This document shows positions 44,843-55,050 of a stretch of 57,372 bases of DNA, piece by piece (the stretch's first letter is position 1; each line of letters starts with the position of its first letter). This DNA comes from Deltaproteobacteria bacterium (GTDB taxonomy: Bacteria > Desulfobacterota > Desulfobaccia > Desulfobaccales > 0-14-0-80-60-11). The stretch covers positions 1 through 57,372 of the forward strand of contig JAKAKP010000163.1 of the NCBI GenBank assembly GCA_021813445.1. Reading direction: 5' to 3'. The position numbers and the translations under genes were made by a program. The notes under the pieces are model-generated. The model had not been told where the DNA came from. It saw only the letters and a list, made by a program, of their open reading frames with translations, and did no database searches.

Positions 44843-45199
44843 CTACTTCTTTTGCAACTGCTGCTTCATGGCGTCCAGGCGCTTTTGCATGTCTTGCAGC
44901 TGTTGATCGTGCTGCGGCTTCATCTGGGCGGCCTGGGGGCCACACATCTGGTGCATCATGGTGCCCATCTGGTCCATCATGCCCATCATTTGCTTTTGCT
45001 GCTCGGGGGTCATAGGCATGTTCATCATCCCGCGCATGTCACCCATCATGCCTTGCATCCGGCCCATGTAATCCGGCATCCAGGGGCAGCCACTCATAGG
45101 CCCGCCCATCATCGGATGATCCCCGCGCATCTGGGCGGCGGAAATTCCTGCGCCCATGACTAGAAACGTCAAGCTGAGAAAAATCGCCATTTTTTTCAT
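44843..45199 (-). CDS. Met-rich secreted protein, probable periplasmic metal binder
   Basis: 118 residues from the ATG at 45199 (MKKMAIFLSLTFLVMGAGIS signal). Met makes up a large share of the mature part (GMMGDMRGMMNMPMTPEQQK, MMGMMDQMGTMMHQMCGP), with CPWMPDYMGRM shared with the paralog downstream. Likely Cu/Ag sequestration or delivery in the periplasm. It is placed between two membrane sensors. Confidence 0.78.
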   Translation of the reverse strand: MKKMAIFLSLTFLVMGAGISAAQMRGDHPMMGGPMSGCPWMPDYMGRMQGMMGDMRGMMNMPMTPEQQKQMMGMMDQMGTMMHQMCGPQAAQMKPQHDQQLQDMQKRLDAMKQQLQKK

Positions 45200-45323
45200 A
45201 GTCCGCCTCCTTTGGTCGTTGATAGTTAATTTTAATCTAAGTCCTTTAAATTCATGAGCAAGCACTCATCAGGCCCAACTTACCGCTATCCGGGGATTAA
45301 TACGGCTGTAGGTGGGCAGTTGC

Positions 45324-47370: not shown

Positions 47371-47637
47371 TTACTTTTTGGGTGTGGGCTGTGCCGGCTG
47401 CTGTTGCTGCTGCTGCATCTTCATCATGGGACACGATTGCATCCACTGCGCCATTTGTTCCTGCATCTTCTTCATTTCCTCCGGGGTCATCTGCTTCTGG
47501 GACATCATCATCGCCATGCAGGGACACATCATCATAGTGGGCTGTTGCGGCTGCGGAGCCGGAGCCTGTTGGGCCAGGGCCATGCCAGAGCCGGCAGTCA
47601 ACGCCAGTGCCAATAGAATAACCACCATCTTTTTCAT
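47371..47637 (-). CDS. Small Met/Cys-rich secreted protein
   Basis: 88 residues. A signal peptide (MVVILLALALTAGSGMALAQ) is followed by a Gln/Pro linker and MMMCPCMAMMMSQKQMTPEE, then MAQWMQSCPMMKMQ and a poly-Gln stretch. The Met/Cys clusters are typical of periplasmic copper- or silver-binding proteins (inference). RBS GGAGG precedes the ATG. Confidence 0.75.
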   Translation of the reverse strand: MKKMVVILLALALTAGSGMALAQQAPAPQPQQPTMMMCPCMAMMMSQKQMTPEEMKKMQEQMAQWMQSCPMMKMQQQQQQPAQPTPKK

Positions 47638-47904: not shown

Positions 47905-48243
47905 TCACCAGCAAGAGCCCCAGCCGCCGCGATAGGCACCGGCATAGCCGGAGTTCCAGGAGCACCGAGCGCCTTGGTAGCCGCGTCCCCATGTCCGGGA
48001 ACCGGAATTCCGGTAGTCCCGATTGACCGGAGCGGAATACCCGTAGGCAGGACCCATGGGGCAGTAAGCATAGCCGTTGCCGTCATAGCCATAGTAACCG
48101 CCGGCCTGGTCTTGCGCCGCAGGACCATAGGAAGCCGCAGGGTCGTTTTGCTGCTGGGCCTGGGAAGCGCCGGGGAGACCCACCGTCAGGGTAAAAGCCA
48201 GCACCAAGGCCAGGCCAAGAATCGACCAATTCCGTACGTTCAT
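47905..48243 (-). CDS. Secreted Gly/Tyr-rich protein
   Basis: 112 residues with a signal peptide (ILGLALVLAFTLTVGLPGAS). The mature part is rich in Gly, Tyr, Ser and Asn (GGYYGYDGNGYAYCPMGPAY, GAYRGGWGSCW) with three Cys. Low complexity; function unknown. It lies among the metal-binding small proteins. Confidence 0.6.
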   Translation of the reverse strand: MNVRNWSILGLALVLAFTLTVGLPGASQAQQQNDPAASYGPAAQDQAGGYYGYDGNGYAYCPMGPAYGYSAPVNRDYRNSGSRTWGRGYQGARCSWNSGYAGAYRGGWGSCW

Positions 48244-49061: not shown

Positions 49062-50579
49062 CTATTCGATCAGGATCAGGGCGAAGTAGTTCCATCGGCC
49101 AAAGGTCTCTTTTCTGGTGTCGATGTCAAAGTCGTTGTGTCTGGCAGTTTTAAACACATCAATACCGCAGGCTTCCATCATGGGCCTGATCCTGAGTTTG
49201 GTTAGTTCGCTTCTCTGAGGCCCAGGCTGGGCCTCTGCTGCTGCTGTGGGGCAAGTACCGCCAGGGCTGGGAGATGGTTTAACCTCTTTGGTTTTCAAAG
49301 GCTCACCCGGAGCCTCCGCCTGCTTGGAGGGTCAGCCAGCGCCAGGGTTTGGTTTGACCTCCTCCACCCTTACAGGCTCCGCCGGAGCCTGGGTCTCACC
49401 GGATGGTCAGGTGGCCCCCGGAGCGGAGGCCGGCGCACACGCAGACAAACCACTGGGCACCAGGGCGACGAGAGCGAAGGCCTTATAGTAACCCCGATGG
49501 TAAGCTTCGCCTTCCAGCTTAACCGCCGCTTCGCTTAGCGTCTGCCCATTGGGACCATTGAGAAGGATGGCCTTGGTATATTCTCCGAGAACCCTTTTTG
49601 TGCTTGCCGCATCCGGGGCGAAGGGGGGGTGGAAGGGGGCTTTCTCGAAGAGAGGGCAACCATACTGGCACTTCCATCTCACCCATTCCTCCACCGCCAC
49701 CGTTTCCGCGTCGATGATTTTGGCTTTCTCGGCCCCCAACTCCAAGGCCCGTTTTAGCAGGTATTCCATCTTACCCTCCCGCATTCCCGCCTCTCCGGTT
49801 GGTTTTCGCTCCCAAACACCCGCCTCCACGGGCGGCTTGACGGCTCGAAACAACACTCCCTTGGTTACCGGAGAGCTGTTGAAGCCGGTTTCCATTGCCA
49901 GTTCGGACTCTTCAAACCCCGCCTGTTCTAACAGTGCCAGGAAAACCTTTCCCGGTATGGCTCCGCCTTCTCACCTGGCCCAGTTCTCCACGCGAGCTTT
50001 GGTTTCCTTGGGCAATTCCCCGGCCAGCACCTGGTCGGCCAACATGAACCGCCCTCCCGGCTTCAGAACCCGGTAGACTTCGCCCAGAGCTTTGACTTTA
50101 TCCACCACCAGGTTAAAGACGCCATTGGAGATCACCAAGTCAAAGCTGTTATCAGGGAAGGGCAACCGTTCCGCGGATGATTCCTGGAAAGTGACGTTAT
50201 CGACGCCTGCCAGGCGAGCATTCTCGCTCGCTTTGGCCAGCATCTCGGGAACCAGGTCAATTCCCGTCACTGCCCCCGAAGGCCCCACCAGCTTTGCGGC
50301 AATGATGGAATCGACCCCGGCGCCGCAACCGATGTCCAGGACCGTTTCACCTTCCCGAATCGGCCCTAAGGTAAAAGGGTTACCCACCCCACAATAGGCA
50401 GCGGCCACGGGCTCCGGCAGCCCACGGACCAGATCCGGAGCATAGTTCAGCGCCTCCAGCCCGGCCCGGCCGGTGGGGTACCGAAAGAGTCCTTCCGGGC
50501 TGGCGGCAACCTTGAGGTATTTCCCCCGGATGCTCGCCTCGATCCGTTGCTTGTCTTGGCGGGTTAACTCGTTTTCCAT
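49062..50579 (-). CDS. arsM: ArsM-DUF2284 fusion, predicted selenoprotein with three UGA codons
   Basis: One frame of 505 codons with three in-frame TGA (residues 203, 391, 416). Residues 1-232 are an arsenite S-adenosylmethionine methyltransferase: FRYPTG, Cys63 in AAYCGVGNPF, VLDIGCGAG, VISNGVFNLV and YRVLKPGGRF. The first TGA (49973-49971) falls in W-A-R-U-E-G-G-A, exactly where ArsM has its second catalytic Cys (W-x-x-C-x-x-G-A), and LALLEQAGF continues beyond. After a linker, residues 271-505 form a DUF2284 domain (KCQYGCPLF, PPFAPD, EYTKAILL, GYYKAFAL, MMEACGIDVF, closing TAG). Two more TGA (49409-49407, 49334-49332) lie in a repeat inside it; the third copy has TGC. An internal ATG at 49769 with GGGAGGG upstream could also start DUF2284 alone. 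Confidence 0.82.
49217..49235 (-). other. Hairpin after the Cys codon of the third repeat
   Basis: GAGGCCCAGCCTGGGCCTC is a near-perfect palindrome beginning 15 bases after the TGC at 49253-49251. It is in the same place as the SECIS-like hairpins of the two preceding repeat units, which suggests that this unit descended from a UGA-bearing copy. Confidence 0.55.
49299..49315 (-). other. SECIS-like hairpin after the second repeat UGA
   Basis: AGGCTC pairs with GAGCCT around the loop CGGGT, starting 16 bases after the TGA at 49334-49332. A loop with GG/GU at about 22-26 bases from the UGA fits bacterial SECIS spacing (established range roughly 16-37 bases). Confidence 0.6.
49373..49391 (-). 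other. SECIS-like hairpin after the first repeat UGA
   Basis: CAGGCTCCGGCGGAGCCTG forms a 7-bp stem with loop CGGCG, starting 15 bases after the TGA at 49409-49407. Spacing and G-containing loop fit a bacterial SECIS element read by SelB. Confidence 0.62.
49936..49961 (-). other. Possible SECIS-like hairpin after the ArsM UGA
   Basis: Nine bases after the TGA (49973-49971), GCCA pairs with TGGC, enclosing ACC/GGT around a GGGAAA loop with an internal bulge. It is weaker than the hairpins after the repeat UGA codons, but the loop lies at a plausible distance. Confidence 0.4.
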
Positions 50580-50590
50580 CCTTGTACCCC

Positions 50591-50851
50591 TTAACCCTGG
50601 ATATTCCTTCTCATCTGCTCGAATTCATCTTTGGTGATCTCACCCTTGGCATACCTGGTCTTCAGTATGTCTAAGGGGGATTCCAATTCTCTGCCTGGGC
50701 TGTAATGCCTGTCAGCATTGTGCCAGGGCGGCCTGAACCCGCCCCGGCCAAAGATAAAGTAGAGGCAGAGCAACAAGACGACCAGCATGATAATGGGCAT
50801 GAACATGGGGAAAAACCACATGGGGCTCCACCAAACATAATCCGGGTGCAT
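50591..50851 (-). CDS. SHOCT-domain membrane protein
   Basis: 86 residues: one long hydrophobic segment (FMPIIMLVVLLLCLYFIF), a short linker, and a C-terminal SHOCT motif (LDILKTRYAKGEITKDEFEQ). Common as a small membrane accessory beside metal genes. It is 12 bases upstream of the ArsM fusion in the operon. Confidence 0.82.
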   Translation of the reverse strand: MHPDYVWWSPMWFFPMFMPIIMLVVLLLCLYFIFGRGGFRPPWHNADRHYSPGRELESPLDILKTRYAKGEITKDEFEQMRRNIQG

Positions 50852-50878: not shown

Positions 50879-51139
50879 TTACAACTTCACCCCGGTTATC
50901 TTGAGCTTGCCTTCTCTGACCAGCTTGCCGATTAGGAAGTGGACGCTCTCTTCGGAGAGCTTGAGTTGGGCAGCCAGGTCAGCAGGGGGGCAACTTCCCC
51001 TTTCCTTAAGAAATTCAATAACCTCACCTTCCAACGCTTTAACCCACTCCTCAAACAACCCTCTCAATTCCGGGGAGGCAAAACCCGCCAGCCTGCCGAC
51101 CTCGACGACCGTACCGGTCATCTGCTCGCACATCTGCAT
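50879..51139 (-). CDS. Small winged-helix-like protein
   Basis: 86 residues with Cys5 (MQMCEQMTG) and a C-terminal winged helix pattern (CPPADLAAQLKLSEESVHFL, IGKLVREGKLKITGVKL). It starts directly after the stop of the 32-residue gene. It may be a regulator of the operon or a DNA-binding accessory. Confidence 0.65.
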   Translation of the reverse strand: MQMCEQMTGTVVEVGRLAGFASPELRGLFEEWVKALEGEVIEFLKERGSCPPADLAAQLKLSEESVHFLIGKLVREGKLKITGVKL

Positions 51140-51238
51140 TCACCTCTCCACCATGGGCAGCATGGAACCGCCTTGACCCTCCAGCATCTTTTTCATCATC
51201 TCCATGCCCATGCCCGGGCCGCAACCTTTCTCTTCCAT
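51140..51238 (-). CDS. 32-residue Met-rich small protein
   Basis: ATG at 51238 has GAGGGAAGG five bases upstream, and the stop abuts the next ATG (TGAATG). The sequence starts MEEKGCGPGMGMEMMKKMLE and ends MLPMVER. Seven Met and one Cys suggest metalloid or copper binding (inference). The good ribosome site and tight coupling make it a real gene despite its size. Confidence 0.65.
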   Translation of the reverse strand: MEEKGCGPGMGMEMMKKMLEGQGGSMLPMVER

Positions 51239-51275: not shown

Positions 51276-51989
51276 TTAATCATCGAGGCTCAACATCTCT
51301 CTCTTGGCCCTGAGTTTCTTATAAAAAAAAGGTATTAGGCCGACCAAGGCCACCAGGATGATCCCCACCGCCACGCCCCAAGTGAGCTTTCCCCGGACCA
51401 GGTCCAGGAGGTTGGCGGAGAAATAGATAATGGCAATGGTCATGGGAAGCATGAAAATGAAGGTGCTCACTGCGTAGGCCAGCAGCGAAATCCTGGTGAG
51501 GCCGAAGGCATAGTTTAGCAAGTTATAAGGGAATAAGGGCACGAGCCGGGTTAAGGCCACGATCTTCCAGCCATGCTGCCCCACTTTCTCGTCCAGGGTG
51601 GATAGCTTGGTGCCCGAGAGTTTGGCGGCCACCCAGTCCCGGGCCAGGTAGCGGGCCACCAGGAAGGCTAAGGTGGCGCCGATGGTCGCTCCGAAGATGG
51701 TATAGACCACCCCCCAAAAGGGGCCGAACAAGATGCCGCCGGCCAACCCGATGGGCAATCCTGGCAGGAAAAGCGGAGGAGCGGCTACCCAGATAAGCGT
51801 GTAAATCACCGGCCCCCAGGTGCCGTAGCCTGCCACTGCCTGGCGCAGCCTCTCCTTTTCCAGGTATTGATCCAGCTGGAAATAGCGCACTGTAAGGATA
51901 ATTGCTCCCAGAAGCGCGAGAAAAACCAGGGGCCGGATAACGGAAGGCTTCGAAGGAGCGGACTCCTTATCTTGCATCATGTTCTCCAT
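51276..51989 (-). CDS. TVP38/TMEM64 (DedA-like) membrane protein
   Basis: 237 residues, five or six membrane helices. The SNARE-associated/VTT motif region is clear: LFLPGLPIGLAGGILFGPFW, GATIGATLAFLVARYLARDW, LTRLVPLFPYNLLNYAFGL. Family members act in membrane or lipid transport and occur near mercury and arsenic genes in several bacteria, where transport of the metalloid is suspected but unproven. It follows the ArsR gene by four bases. Confidence 0.85.
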   Translation of the reverse strand: MENMMQDKESAPSKPSVIRPLVFLALLGAIILTVRYFQLDQYLEKERLRQAVAGYGTWGPVIYTLIWVAAPPLFLPGLPIGLAGGILFGPFWGVVYTIFGATIGATLAFLVARYLARDWVAAKLSGTKLSTLDEKVGQHGWKIVALTRLVPLFPYNLLNYAFGLTRISLLAYAVSTFIFMLPMTIAIIYFSANLLDLVRGKLTWGVAVGIILVALVGLIPFFYKKLRAKREMLSLDD

Positions 51990-51993
51990 GGGT

Positions 51994-52350
51994 TTATTTC
52001 ATCCACCTCTGCATGAACCGCATCGGTGGGAACATAAAGGTTCCCTTGTCTTCGATCTCACCCTTGGGGGAAACCCCGGCAAGGGAAATCAAAAGATCGA
52101 TTAAACCCGGCTCCGAGACGCTATAATAGACAAAAGGCCCTTTTCGCTCCGTCGCCAGGAGGCCGCTTTCCCGCAGCGGCCTTAAGTGAAAAGACACCAG
52201 GGTCTGCGACAATGAGGTCTCATTTATTATTTCTGAGACTGATTTTTTCTCCTTGCCTATTGCAAAGATTATCCTCAACCTGTTGGCATCGCTTAAAAGC
52301 TTGAATAGCTTAGCGAGCGAATCCAGTATTTTCTCATCTAGCAGTTTCAT
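51994..52350 (-). CDS. ArsR-family repressor without Cys
   Basis: 118 residues with the ArsR/SmtB winged helix (LFKLLSDANRLRIIFAI, TSLSQTLVSFHLRPLRESGL, GPFVYYSVSEPGL). It has no Cys at all, so a classical thiolate As(III) site is missing; the Met-rich end (FMFPPMRFMQRWMK) might take part instead. It leads the arsenic operon and probably binds the palindrome in its own promoter. Confidence 0.85.
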   Translation of the reverse strand: MKLLDEKILDSLAKLFKLLSDANRLRIIFAIGKEKKSVSEIINETSLSQTLVSFHLRPLRESGLLATERKGPFVYYSVSEPGLIDLLISLAGVSPKGEIEDKGTFMFPPMRFMQRWMK

Positions 52351-53512: not shown

Positions 53513-54688
53513 TCAGGCTCCGGCCTCATTGCAGGCAGGGTCGCAGGCGACGCTTGCCAGGGTGAGAGGCGGGGCCAATTCCGGCGCGGCATCCTGCACG
53601 AACGGCTCCCCGACACGCAAACTCTCCTCGGCCCGGGCCAGTTCCCCGCCCAGATAAGCGGCGTGATCCAGGCGGGAGATAAGGCCCCGGTCAATGGCCG
53701 GAGTATAAAGCTCTGCGGCGGTGGCGCCCTCAATCACTACATCCAGCAACCCGTCATTGAGGTAATGCTCCAGAGACAGTATTCCCCGGCCCCGGTCCAC
53801 ATAAATGACGAAGTAACCGGCAGGGTCGCTCACCATACGGGTGGGCAGATAGCCGGGGATCGGCGACACGACGGGGCCGGCGGCAAATGGCTGGGCTGTC
53901 CCCGGATTCCGGGCGGCGCACCGTTGTGCCGCCGAGAGCACCTTGCAGGCCTCGACTTCTCCGATGAGGTCAATCACCTCCACCACCTCCCGGAAGTGGG
54001 CCACGGCCTCGGGGCTGAGGTTTTTTAGGAGGGGCCGCCGTCCCTGCGCCCCCACGATGCGCCTGCGGTCATCCATGCCATACTGCGCCAGGGCCACCAG
54101 CGATTGCCCCGGATAGTGCCCCACGGCTTGCTGGGAGTCGGGGCCGCAGACAATCACAAAACGCAGGTGGGGGTTGGCCAGGACATTCTGAATAAGTCGC
54201 TCGATCCCCAAATTTTCGGTATGCAGCGTCCCCACCAAAGCGATTTCCGGGCCGCCCTCCCGCACCACGGCAGCAGCCAGGTCCTCAGCCGTGATGCAGC
54301 ATACGGCCAACGGAGCCTGGTAGCGCAGCACCCGGTAGGTTCCGGGCAGAGGCGGCCACCCCCGGCGTTCTTCCACCTTTTCTGTAGGGCAAACCTCAAG
54401 GTCGGCCACGGCTTCGCCCAAAGCCTGGGTTAAAGCGTTCACTACCAGGGGCGGGATGCAGACTTCGCACCCCAGGCAGTCATATTGGCGCTCCACCAAA
54501 CATAGCTTCGCGGTTTCCACCGTTTCCCGGAGTTCCTGTGGGCCTGCCCCCGCCGGGAAAGCCTGTTCCAGCGCCACGACAAGTTGATGAAAGCAGCCGC
54601 AGGCCCGGCATTTCTCCGCGGCCATGGCCTCTTGCAAATACGTCAAGGCTTTCTTAAGGGCCTGCTCTTTTTCTTGGTTTAGGTTCAT
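53513..54688 (-). CDS. MtrA-like corrinoid protein fused to DUF4346
   Basis: 391 residues. The N terminus has Cys clusters (KCRACGC at 27-32; CLGCEVC at 71-77). Residues about 110-250 match subunit A of methyl-H4MPT:CoM methyltransferase: WPPLPGTYRV, LVGTLHTENLGIERLIQNVL and VIVCGPD..AVGHYPGQS, where His191 corresponds to the cobalt ligand of MtrA. The C-terminal 115 residues are DUF4346-like (AGYFVIYVDRGRGILSLEHY, AAYLGGELARAEESLRVG). It has no membrane anchor. The start overlaps the ArsR stop, so it is co-regulated. A role in methyl transfer to or from a metal(loid) is an inference. Confidence 0.75.
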   Translation of the reverse strand: MNLNQEKEQALKKALTYLQEAMAAEKCRACGCFHQLVVALEQAFPAGAGPQELRETVETAKLCLVERQYDCLGCEVCIPPLVVNALTQALGEAVADLEVCPTEKVEERRGWPPLPGTYRVLRYQAPLAVCCITAEDLAAAVVREGGPEIALVGTLHTENLGIERLIQNVLANPHLRFVIVCGPDSQQAVGHYPGQSLVALAQYGMDDRRRIVGAQGRRPLLKNLSPEAVAHFREVVEVIDLIGEVEACKVLSAAQRCAARNPGTAQPFAAGPVVSPIPGYLPTRMVSDPAGYFVIYVDRGRGILSLEHYLNDGLLDVVIEGATAAELYTPAIDRGLISRLDHAAYLGGELARAEESLRVGEPFVQDAAPELAPPLTLASVACDPACNEAGA

Positions 54689-55050
54689 CTGCTTCTCGCT
54701 TTAGCATCTTCGCTGAGGCAAAGACCATGATCCAGGATTTCGATGACGCACCGGTCTACAATCCGGTAATAGATATTGTTGCCGTTGCGCCTGTGTCCCA
54801 GGAAGCCGCGATCCACCAGTTTCTGGAGCTGGTTGGAGACTGCCTGGGGTTTCATGCCCAAGAGATCGGCCAGTTCGGTCATGCGCATCTCTTCCGCCCG
54901 TACCAGCGCATGGATGAGCCGCAAGCGCGTATCATTGGCCAGGACCTTGAACAATCCCACCATCTCGGCGGCTTGCTCCCCCGTCAGCAAGGGGCGATCC
55001 TCCAATCTGGGCTTGGGCAGGCAGGTTTTGGGAACACTTTCAGCTTTCAT
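54685..55050 (-). CDS. ArsR/SmtB-family metal-responsive repressor
   Basis: 121 residues with the winged helix (FKVLANDTRLRLIHALV, MTELADLLGMKPQAVSNQLQ, NNIYYRIVD). Cys occur at residue 10 (KTCLPKP) and in DRCVIEILDHGLCLSEDA. C-terminal Cys in this arrangement serve as metal ligands in CmtR/CadC-type sensors. The -10 box lies only eight bases before the ATG at 55050, so the mRNA is almost leaderless or the true start is the internal ATG at about residue 30. Confidence 0.87.
   Translation of the reverse strand: MKAESVPKTCLPKPRLEDRPLLTGEQAAEMVGLFKVLANDTRLRLIHALVRAEEMRMTELADLLGMKPQAVSNQLQKLVDRGFLGHRRNGNNIYYRIVDRCVIEILDHGLCLSEDAKARSR

Follow-up and report, generated by a model that had tools for sequence, protein, structure and literature searches.

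Proteins that join an ArsM-like methyltransferase to a DUF2284 domain are already catalogued as the selenoprotein family NF041536 (ArsM_DUF2284_UU), for which a 2026 review, citing Haft and Tolstoy 2025, gives two selenocysteines (Sec, U) per protein (PMC13188914). ArsM enzymes themselves are recognized by the presence of at least three of four conserved cysteines, at positions 44, 72, 174 and 224 of CmArsM (PMC5552862); arsenite requires three cysteines, and the C174A and C224A variants of CmArsM are each inactive (PMC3877260). The criterion for a bacterial selenoprotein is a SECIS element inside the gene, 3' of each UGA, with G[G/U] at the apex and a spacing of 16–37 nt.

The window analysed here is a stretch of 57,372 nucleotides from a draft deltaproteobacterial genome of 166 contigs. 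Translation of its minus strand from 50579 to 49062 with TGA read as Sec gives a 505-residue protein that contains U203, U391 and U416 and ends at a TAG, whereas under translation table 11 the same segment breaks up into several short open reading frames. The single frame with three TGA codons and a final TAG was described in the original prediction and was reproduced exactly on retranslation. The protein scores 700.1 bits against NF041536 (cut-off 575) and displays the family trait of an in-frame TGA at the methyltransferase site (U203) and in the DUF2284 module (U391 and U416). The view that an ArsM–DUF2284 fusion selenoprotein was not a known entity must therefore be given up, given this score and the existing catalogue entry. 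Compared with the two Sec listed for the family, there are three in the window protein and four in its paralogue and orthologue; the Sec count is not part of the NF041536 model and, since the model is satisfied, we treat the window protein as a variant within this family.

The first TGA (49971–49973, minus strand, as are all features of the gene) encodes the predicted Sec203 and aligns exactly with CmArsM Cys224, a member of the arsenic-binding pair, in agreement with its initial assignment to the second catalytic cysteine. The other two, for Sec391 (49407–49409; module 1, PGAT-U-PSG) and Sec416 (49332–49334; module 2, PGAG-U-PSK), fall within DUF2284 as had been proposed, in an insertion that splits the PF10050 match and is followed by the conserved MEACGIDVF. 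The linker that carries them proved to be a triple repeat, a feature absent from the original prediction; its third copy (PGGT-C-PTA) has Cys443, encoded by TGC at 49251–49253, where both the paralogue and the orthologue have TGA.

Recurrence of the TGAs in relatives, selection beyond the last of them, downstream hairpins and the Sec machinery of the genome all support their reading as Sec and, on this sequence evidence, the fusion gene almost certainly specifies a genuine three-Sec protein, as first suggested. A paralogue in the source genome (contig C106, 39470–40999; 79% identity) and the orthologue of a genus-mate (L017/G001; 77% identity) have four TGAs each, including all three window positions; in the Desulfobacterota homologues L018–L022, L028, L090 and L091, TGA occupies site 1 and occurs again in one module. 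Relatives thus carry TGA or Cys at these sites, as anticipated, with one exception: homologue L023 (5001–6389) has Gly (GGA) at site 1, with the hairpin stem retained, while L091, another copy from that genome, has TGA. Either site 1 has been lost in L023 or the Gly is a read error; given L023, site 1 is not always Sec. The dN/dS ratio is 0.08–0.18 before the modules, 0.26–0.31 in the linker and 0.03–0.04 over the 47 residues past the last module, and the value of about 0.03 there indicates continued purifying selection past the last TGA. The source genome contains selA, selB, selD and tRNA-Sec, each scoring above its curated cut-off, as the original prediction would have it; selD itself has one in-frame TGA.

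SECIS-like hairpins follow all three TGA codons of the window gene at a spacing of 22–23 nt and with GG in the loop: at 49937–49955 for Sec203 (7 bp stem, 5 nt loop AGGTT), at 49373–49391 for Sec391 (loop CGGCG) and at 49298–49316 for Sec416 (loop CGGGT). A hairpin with a G[G/U] loop at this spacing is found behind every TGA, with the exception of L025, in which it is offset by one codon, matching a one-codon difference in the module; in L023 the stem is weak. Across the module hairpins (n = 20), 94% of cells are paired and compensatory changes occur at seven of seven pairs, giving 24 compensatory cells against a shuffle mean of 5.5 (none of 500 shuffles reached 24); pairing drops below 50% after a slide of one column. 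The Sec203 hairpin is fully paired in 11 of 11 sequences, which differ so little that covariation is weak. Equally stable hairpins at 22–23 nt were found for 0.1–0.7% of window TGAs and for at most 0.6% of synonymous recodings, fractions that are partly circular because the spacing was set from the same sites, a problem that affects the covariation test far less. Hairpin energy at single sites with free spacing is not discriminating in this GC-rich DNA, in which 3–27% of TGAs are followed by an equally stable structure, and our argument therefore rests on a fixed spacing, on synonymous recoding and on covariation. An Rfam scan of the region gave no match.

The methyltransferase domain (PF13847) spans residues 75–204. 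Its closest counterpart in fold and sequence is ArsM/AS3MT (NF008823; PDB codes 4fr0, 5evj and 8xt7), with which it has the S-adenosylmethionine domain in common and in which C224 occupies the position of U203, but C72 and C174 of that enzyme correspond to V65 and G153. The NF008823 score (199.1 bits) lies below the cut-off of 263. Replacement of C72 by Val and of C174 by Gly was seen in 11 of 11 full-length family members examined, so that among the arsenic ligands C72, C174 and C224 only the last survives in the family, as Sec, and the window protein falls short of the three-of-four-cysteine definition of ArsM. C63 and C85 are its only cysteines within residues 1–300. Loss of C72 and C174 is evidence against classical arsenite methylation, and the As(III) chemistry originally envisaged is doubtful given these replacements and the inactivity of the CmArsM variants. 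The label 'arsenite METHYLTRANSFERASE' rests on homology and is, judging from these sequences, doubtful for this selenoprotein family as a whole. If the enzyme acts on arsenicals or on other soft metal(loid)s, ligands would have to come from elsewhere, for example from Cys63 or the C-terminal arm.

The DUF2284 region comprises residues 263–505 (49065–49793) and matches PF10050 with 82.7 bits (gathering threshold 25) in two stretches around the insertion. KCxYGCP and MEACGIDVF are kept, but the Sec arm has taken the place of the GPCxxCxxC...C loop canonical for ordinary DUF2284 proteins, a loop on which the Pfam cut-off does not depend; judged by profile, the domain is a divergent DUF2284 without the ordinary metal/cluster loop. 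The repeat arm itself, with its U/U/C modules (residues 373–470; 49170–49463), is predicted to be disordered (AF2 pLDDT under 50). A comparison of solved structures with the DUF2284 profile gave no match. The AF2 model of the domain shows a weak likeness to folds of the nitroreductase-like and cobalamin reductase (QueG, RdhA) types (Foldseek E of 0.05), with VIA giving a best Z of 8.4 and an r.m.s.d. of 2.9 over 107 residues; since the resemblance is weak, we draw no function for DUF2284 from the fold.

Three tandem modules (PGATUPSG, PGAGUPSK and PGGTCPTA in the window protein) are present in the window protein, the C106 paralogue and L017, and the relatives found beyond the genus carry just one, of the form G-[AGS]-T-U-P-[ST] or a close variant. 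The pattern is U-U-U in the C106 paralogue and in L017, making four Sec in all, and U-U-C in the window. Within a gene, modules 1 and 2 are 64–74% identical in bases, compared with 75–88% for corresponding modules of different copies, from which it follows that the triplication is older than the split of the copies. By parsimony over these sequences, Cys443 of the window protein is derived, a recent Sec-to-Cys change beside a SECIS relic. The hairpin behind it (49217–49235; loop AGCCT) has kept the spacing and the most stable stem of all (−15.5 kcal/mol), whereas its loop has GC in place of the GG or GT found behind the TGAs. Synonymous differences between the window and C106 copies are fewer in the linker (pS of 0.32) than in the rest of the gene (0.53–0.64); in the linker this pair is closer than L017 and C106 (0.42), while upstream the closer pair is C106 and L017 (0.36–0.40). 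These values hint at gene conversion between the window and C106 copies within the repeat (49170–49463 compared with L059, the C106 locus).

No more fusions with extra modules were found in about 395 sampled genomes of the phylum and 389 from the order that includes Desulfosarcina, and a search of viral contigs gave no relatives; a scan of 84,980 genomes used short patterns, which relatives can escape. Tandem amplification of Sec modules, up to four Sec in one such protein, and Sec-to-Cys decay with a SECIS relic are unreported in the literature searched, a search that did not include the primary family description. The copies form a natural series that runs from a single module, through three modules and four Sec, to three modules of which one has decayed to Cys, and thereby offer a system for studying Sec-module amplification and Sec-to-Cys reversion while the SECIS relic is still present.

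The fusion gene lies on one strand with four others in an order that is the same in three copies (window, L017 and L059): an ArsR/SmtB regulator (51994–52350), a membrane protein with a VTT domain of the DedA/TVP38 type (51276–51989; PF09335), a small gene (50879–51238), a small membrane protein with a SHOCT domain (50591–50851; PF09851) and the fusion. The regulator is TsoR-like, scoring 92.8 bits against NF045707 (cut-off 115) and above the cut-off for NF033788. Read through its TGA (51140–51142), the small gene gives MLPMVERUMQMCEQM, with a hairpin following the TGA; it scores 59 bits against NF045695, the model for TsoA (cut-off 170), agreeing only in the C-terminal half and the U-x-x-x-C motif (VERUMQMC), and it is called TsoA-like because the cut-off was missed. 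The motif recurs in L017, in L059 (the paralogous operon), in L023 and in L024, and the gene probably encodes a second selenoprotein. Upstream of the operon, 53513–54688 (minus strand) encodes a bacterial protein similar to MtrA (PF04208) that has a pterin-binding domain, DUF4346, and is adjoined by an ArsR regulator at 54685–55050. Downstream of the fusion gene, 44843–45265, 47371–47637 and 47905–48243 (minus strand) encode small, apparently secreted proteins rich in Met, Cys and Gln or in Gly and Tyr, such as MMMCPCMAMMMSQKQMTPEE; they have no Pfam match, and similar ones occur in L017 and L059. A P-type ATPase called from its sequence as metal-type is found near the C106 paralogue.

Taken as a whole, our explanation is that the window protein is an NF041536 selenoprotein with a triplicated C-terminal Sec module, in which the arm would aid a soft-metal(loid) methyltransferase; we put its probability at roughly 0.6. 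That the fusion handles a soft metal(loid) in some way appears likely from its sequence relationships, while the mechanism by which a selenol arm would contribute is a possibility that falls a little short of an even bet. According to this mechanism, the arm may be a flexible chain presenting selenols that would capture a soft metal(loid) (for example Hg(II), an organometal(loid) or a trivalent arsenical) and either hand it to the U203/Cys63 site beside S-adenosylmethionine or complete its coordination there; the species bound to U203 might then be methylated, or the arm might re-reduce U203 after turnover. Additional module copies could give a higher valency of capture or tolerance to the loss of one site, and the TsoR-like regulator of the ArsR family would probably make the operon inducible by metal(loid)s. 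Support for the proposal comes from the position of the Sec arm in place of the canonical DUF2284 Cys loop and its predicted disorder, from a sister methyltransferase with a PGGAUAPK tail and from an operon with an ArsR-family regulator and a TsoA-like selenoprotein. A bolder and distinctly tentative extension is that selenol modules strung in tandem along a disordered arm, each with its own SECIS, could together act as a multivalent chelator tethered to the methyltransferase and supply the lost ArsM ligands, their copy number evolving by duplication and by Sec-to-Cys reversion of single modules.

One alternative, a broken gene or assembly error that would make the TGAs real stop codons and the open reading frame a pseudogene, has a very small probability. 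In table 11 TGA ordinarily signals a stop, and it probably terminates the C106 paralogue (L059, 5471–7003), in which a fifth TGA, probably a true stop, stands where the homologues end and is followed by one codon and then TAG or TAA. Against a pseudogene stand the retention of the TGAs in three independent copies, purifying selection on both sides of them, the covarying hairpins and the full Sec machinery; three-copy conservation, dN/dS and covariation rule out a pseudogene or sequencing error. Alternatives that accept the selenoprotein concern the purpose of the arm. It might be a reductant tail akin to the Gly-Sec arm of thioredoxin reductase, its selenols reducing U203 or the substrate once each methylation is complete and any metal(loid) binding being incidental. 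The Gly-rich, flexible G-G-x-U-P sequence, the predicted disorder and the similar motif at the very C-terminus of the sister methyltransferase speak for this idea, but the modules lack a resolving cysteine in the form of CxxU or UxxC, the arm replaces a metal/cluster-binding Cys loop, and the number of copies would not be expected to matter to a reductant; we consider it rather unlikely.

The ArsM likeness could also reflect fold ancestry, with a non-metal selenol or thiol or a metabolite as the substrate and some other role for the Sec arm. Absence of two of the three arsenic-ligand cysteines across the whole family would be explained in this way, in line with the inactive CmArsM variants noted above, and DUF2284 also occurs without this methyltransferase, as in the MbdU-type L024. 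Retention of U exactly at the C224 position, the nearby ArsR-family regulators and the metal-type P-type ATPase by the paralogue count against it, and we give it a low probability. Soft-metal(loid) methylation aided by the arm remains our preferred reading; if the arm does bind a soft metal(loid), it would represent a bacterial case of a chelating arm with several Sec joined to the very enzyme that acts on its cargo.

Other NF041536 members resemble the window protein in having the same two domains, with Sec both at the methyltransferase site and, within DUF2284, in a G-x-T-U-P module, but were found with one module, two Sec being listed, where the window protein has three modules with three Sec and one Sec-to-Cys change. 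The methyltransferase domain type is shared with NF047649, the methyltransferase/UXPK-star double selenoprotein, which is without DUF2284 and has its second Sec at the extreme C-terminus; the window protein scores 339 bits against this model (cut-off 460). The sister methyltransferase of the source genome (contig C128; L060, 3825–4676, minus strand) likewise carries Sec at this methyltransferase site, has its module-like PGGAUAPK tail at the C-terminus, and looks by motif like a member of the UXPK-star family. These sequences suggest a recurring design in which a Sec methyltransferase is combined with a flexible G-G-x-U arm. The same methyltransferase type occurs in NF041537, the ArsM/AhpD domain selenoprotein, for which three Sec are listed (PMC13188914), but there the partner is AhpD with a CxxU Sec motif and no repeated linker is listed (397 bits for the window protein, below 510). 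A Sec-containing DUF2284 is shared with the metal-binding double selenoprotein MbdU (NF045648), which is matched by residues 263–403 of the window protein but has a different N-terminal half and no methyltransferase; L024 (4275–5537), an MbdU at 700 bits, carries the DUF2284 Sec module on a different, Cys-rich N-terminal part.
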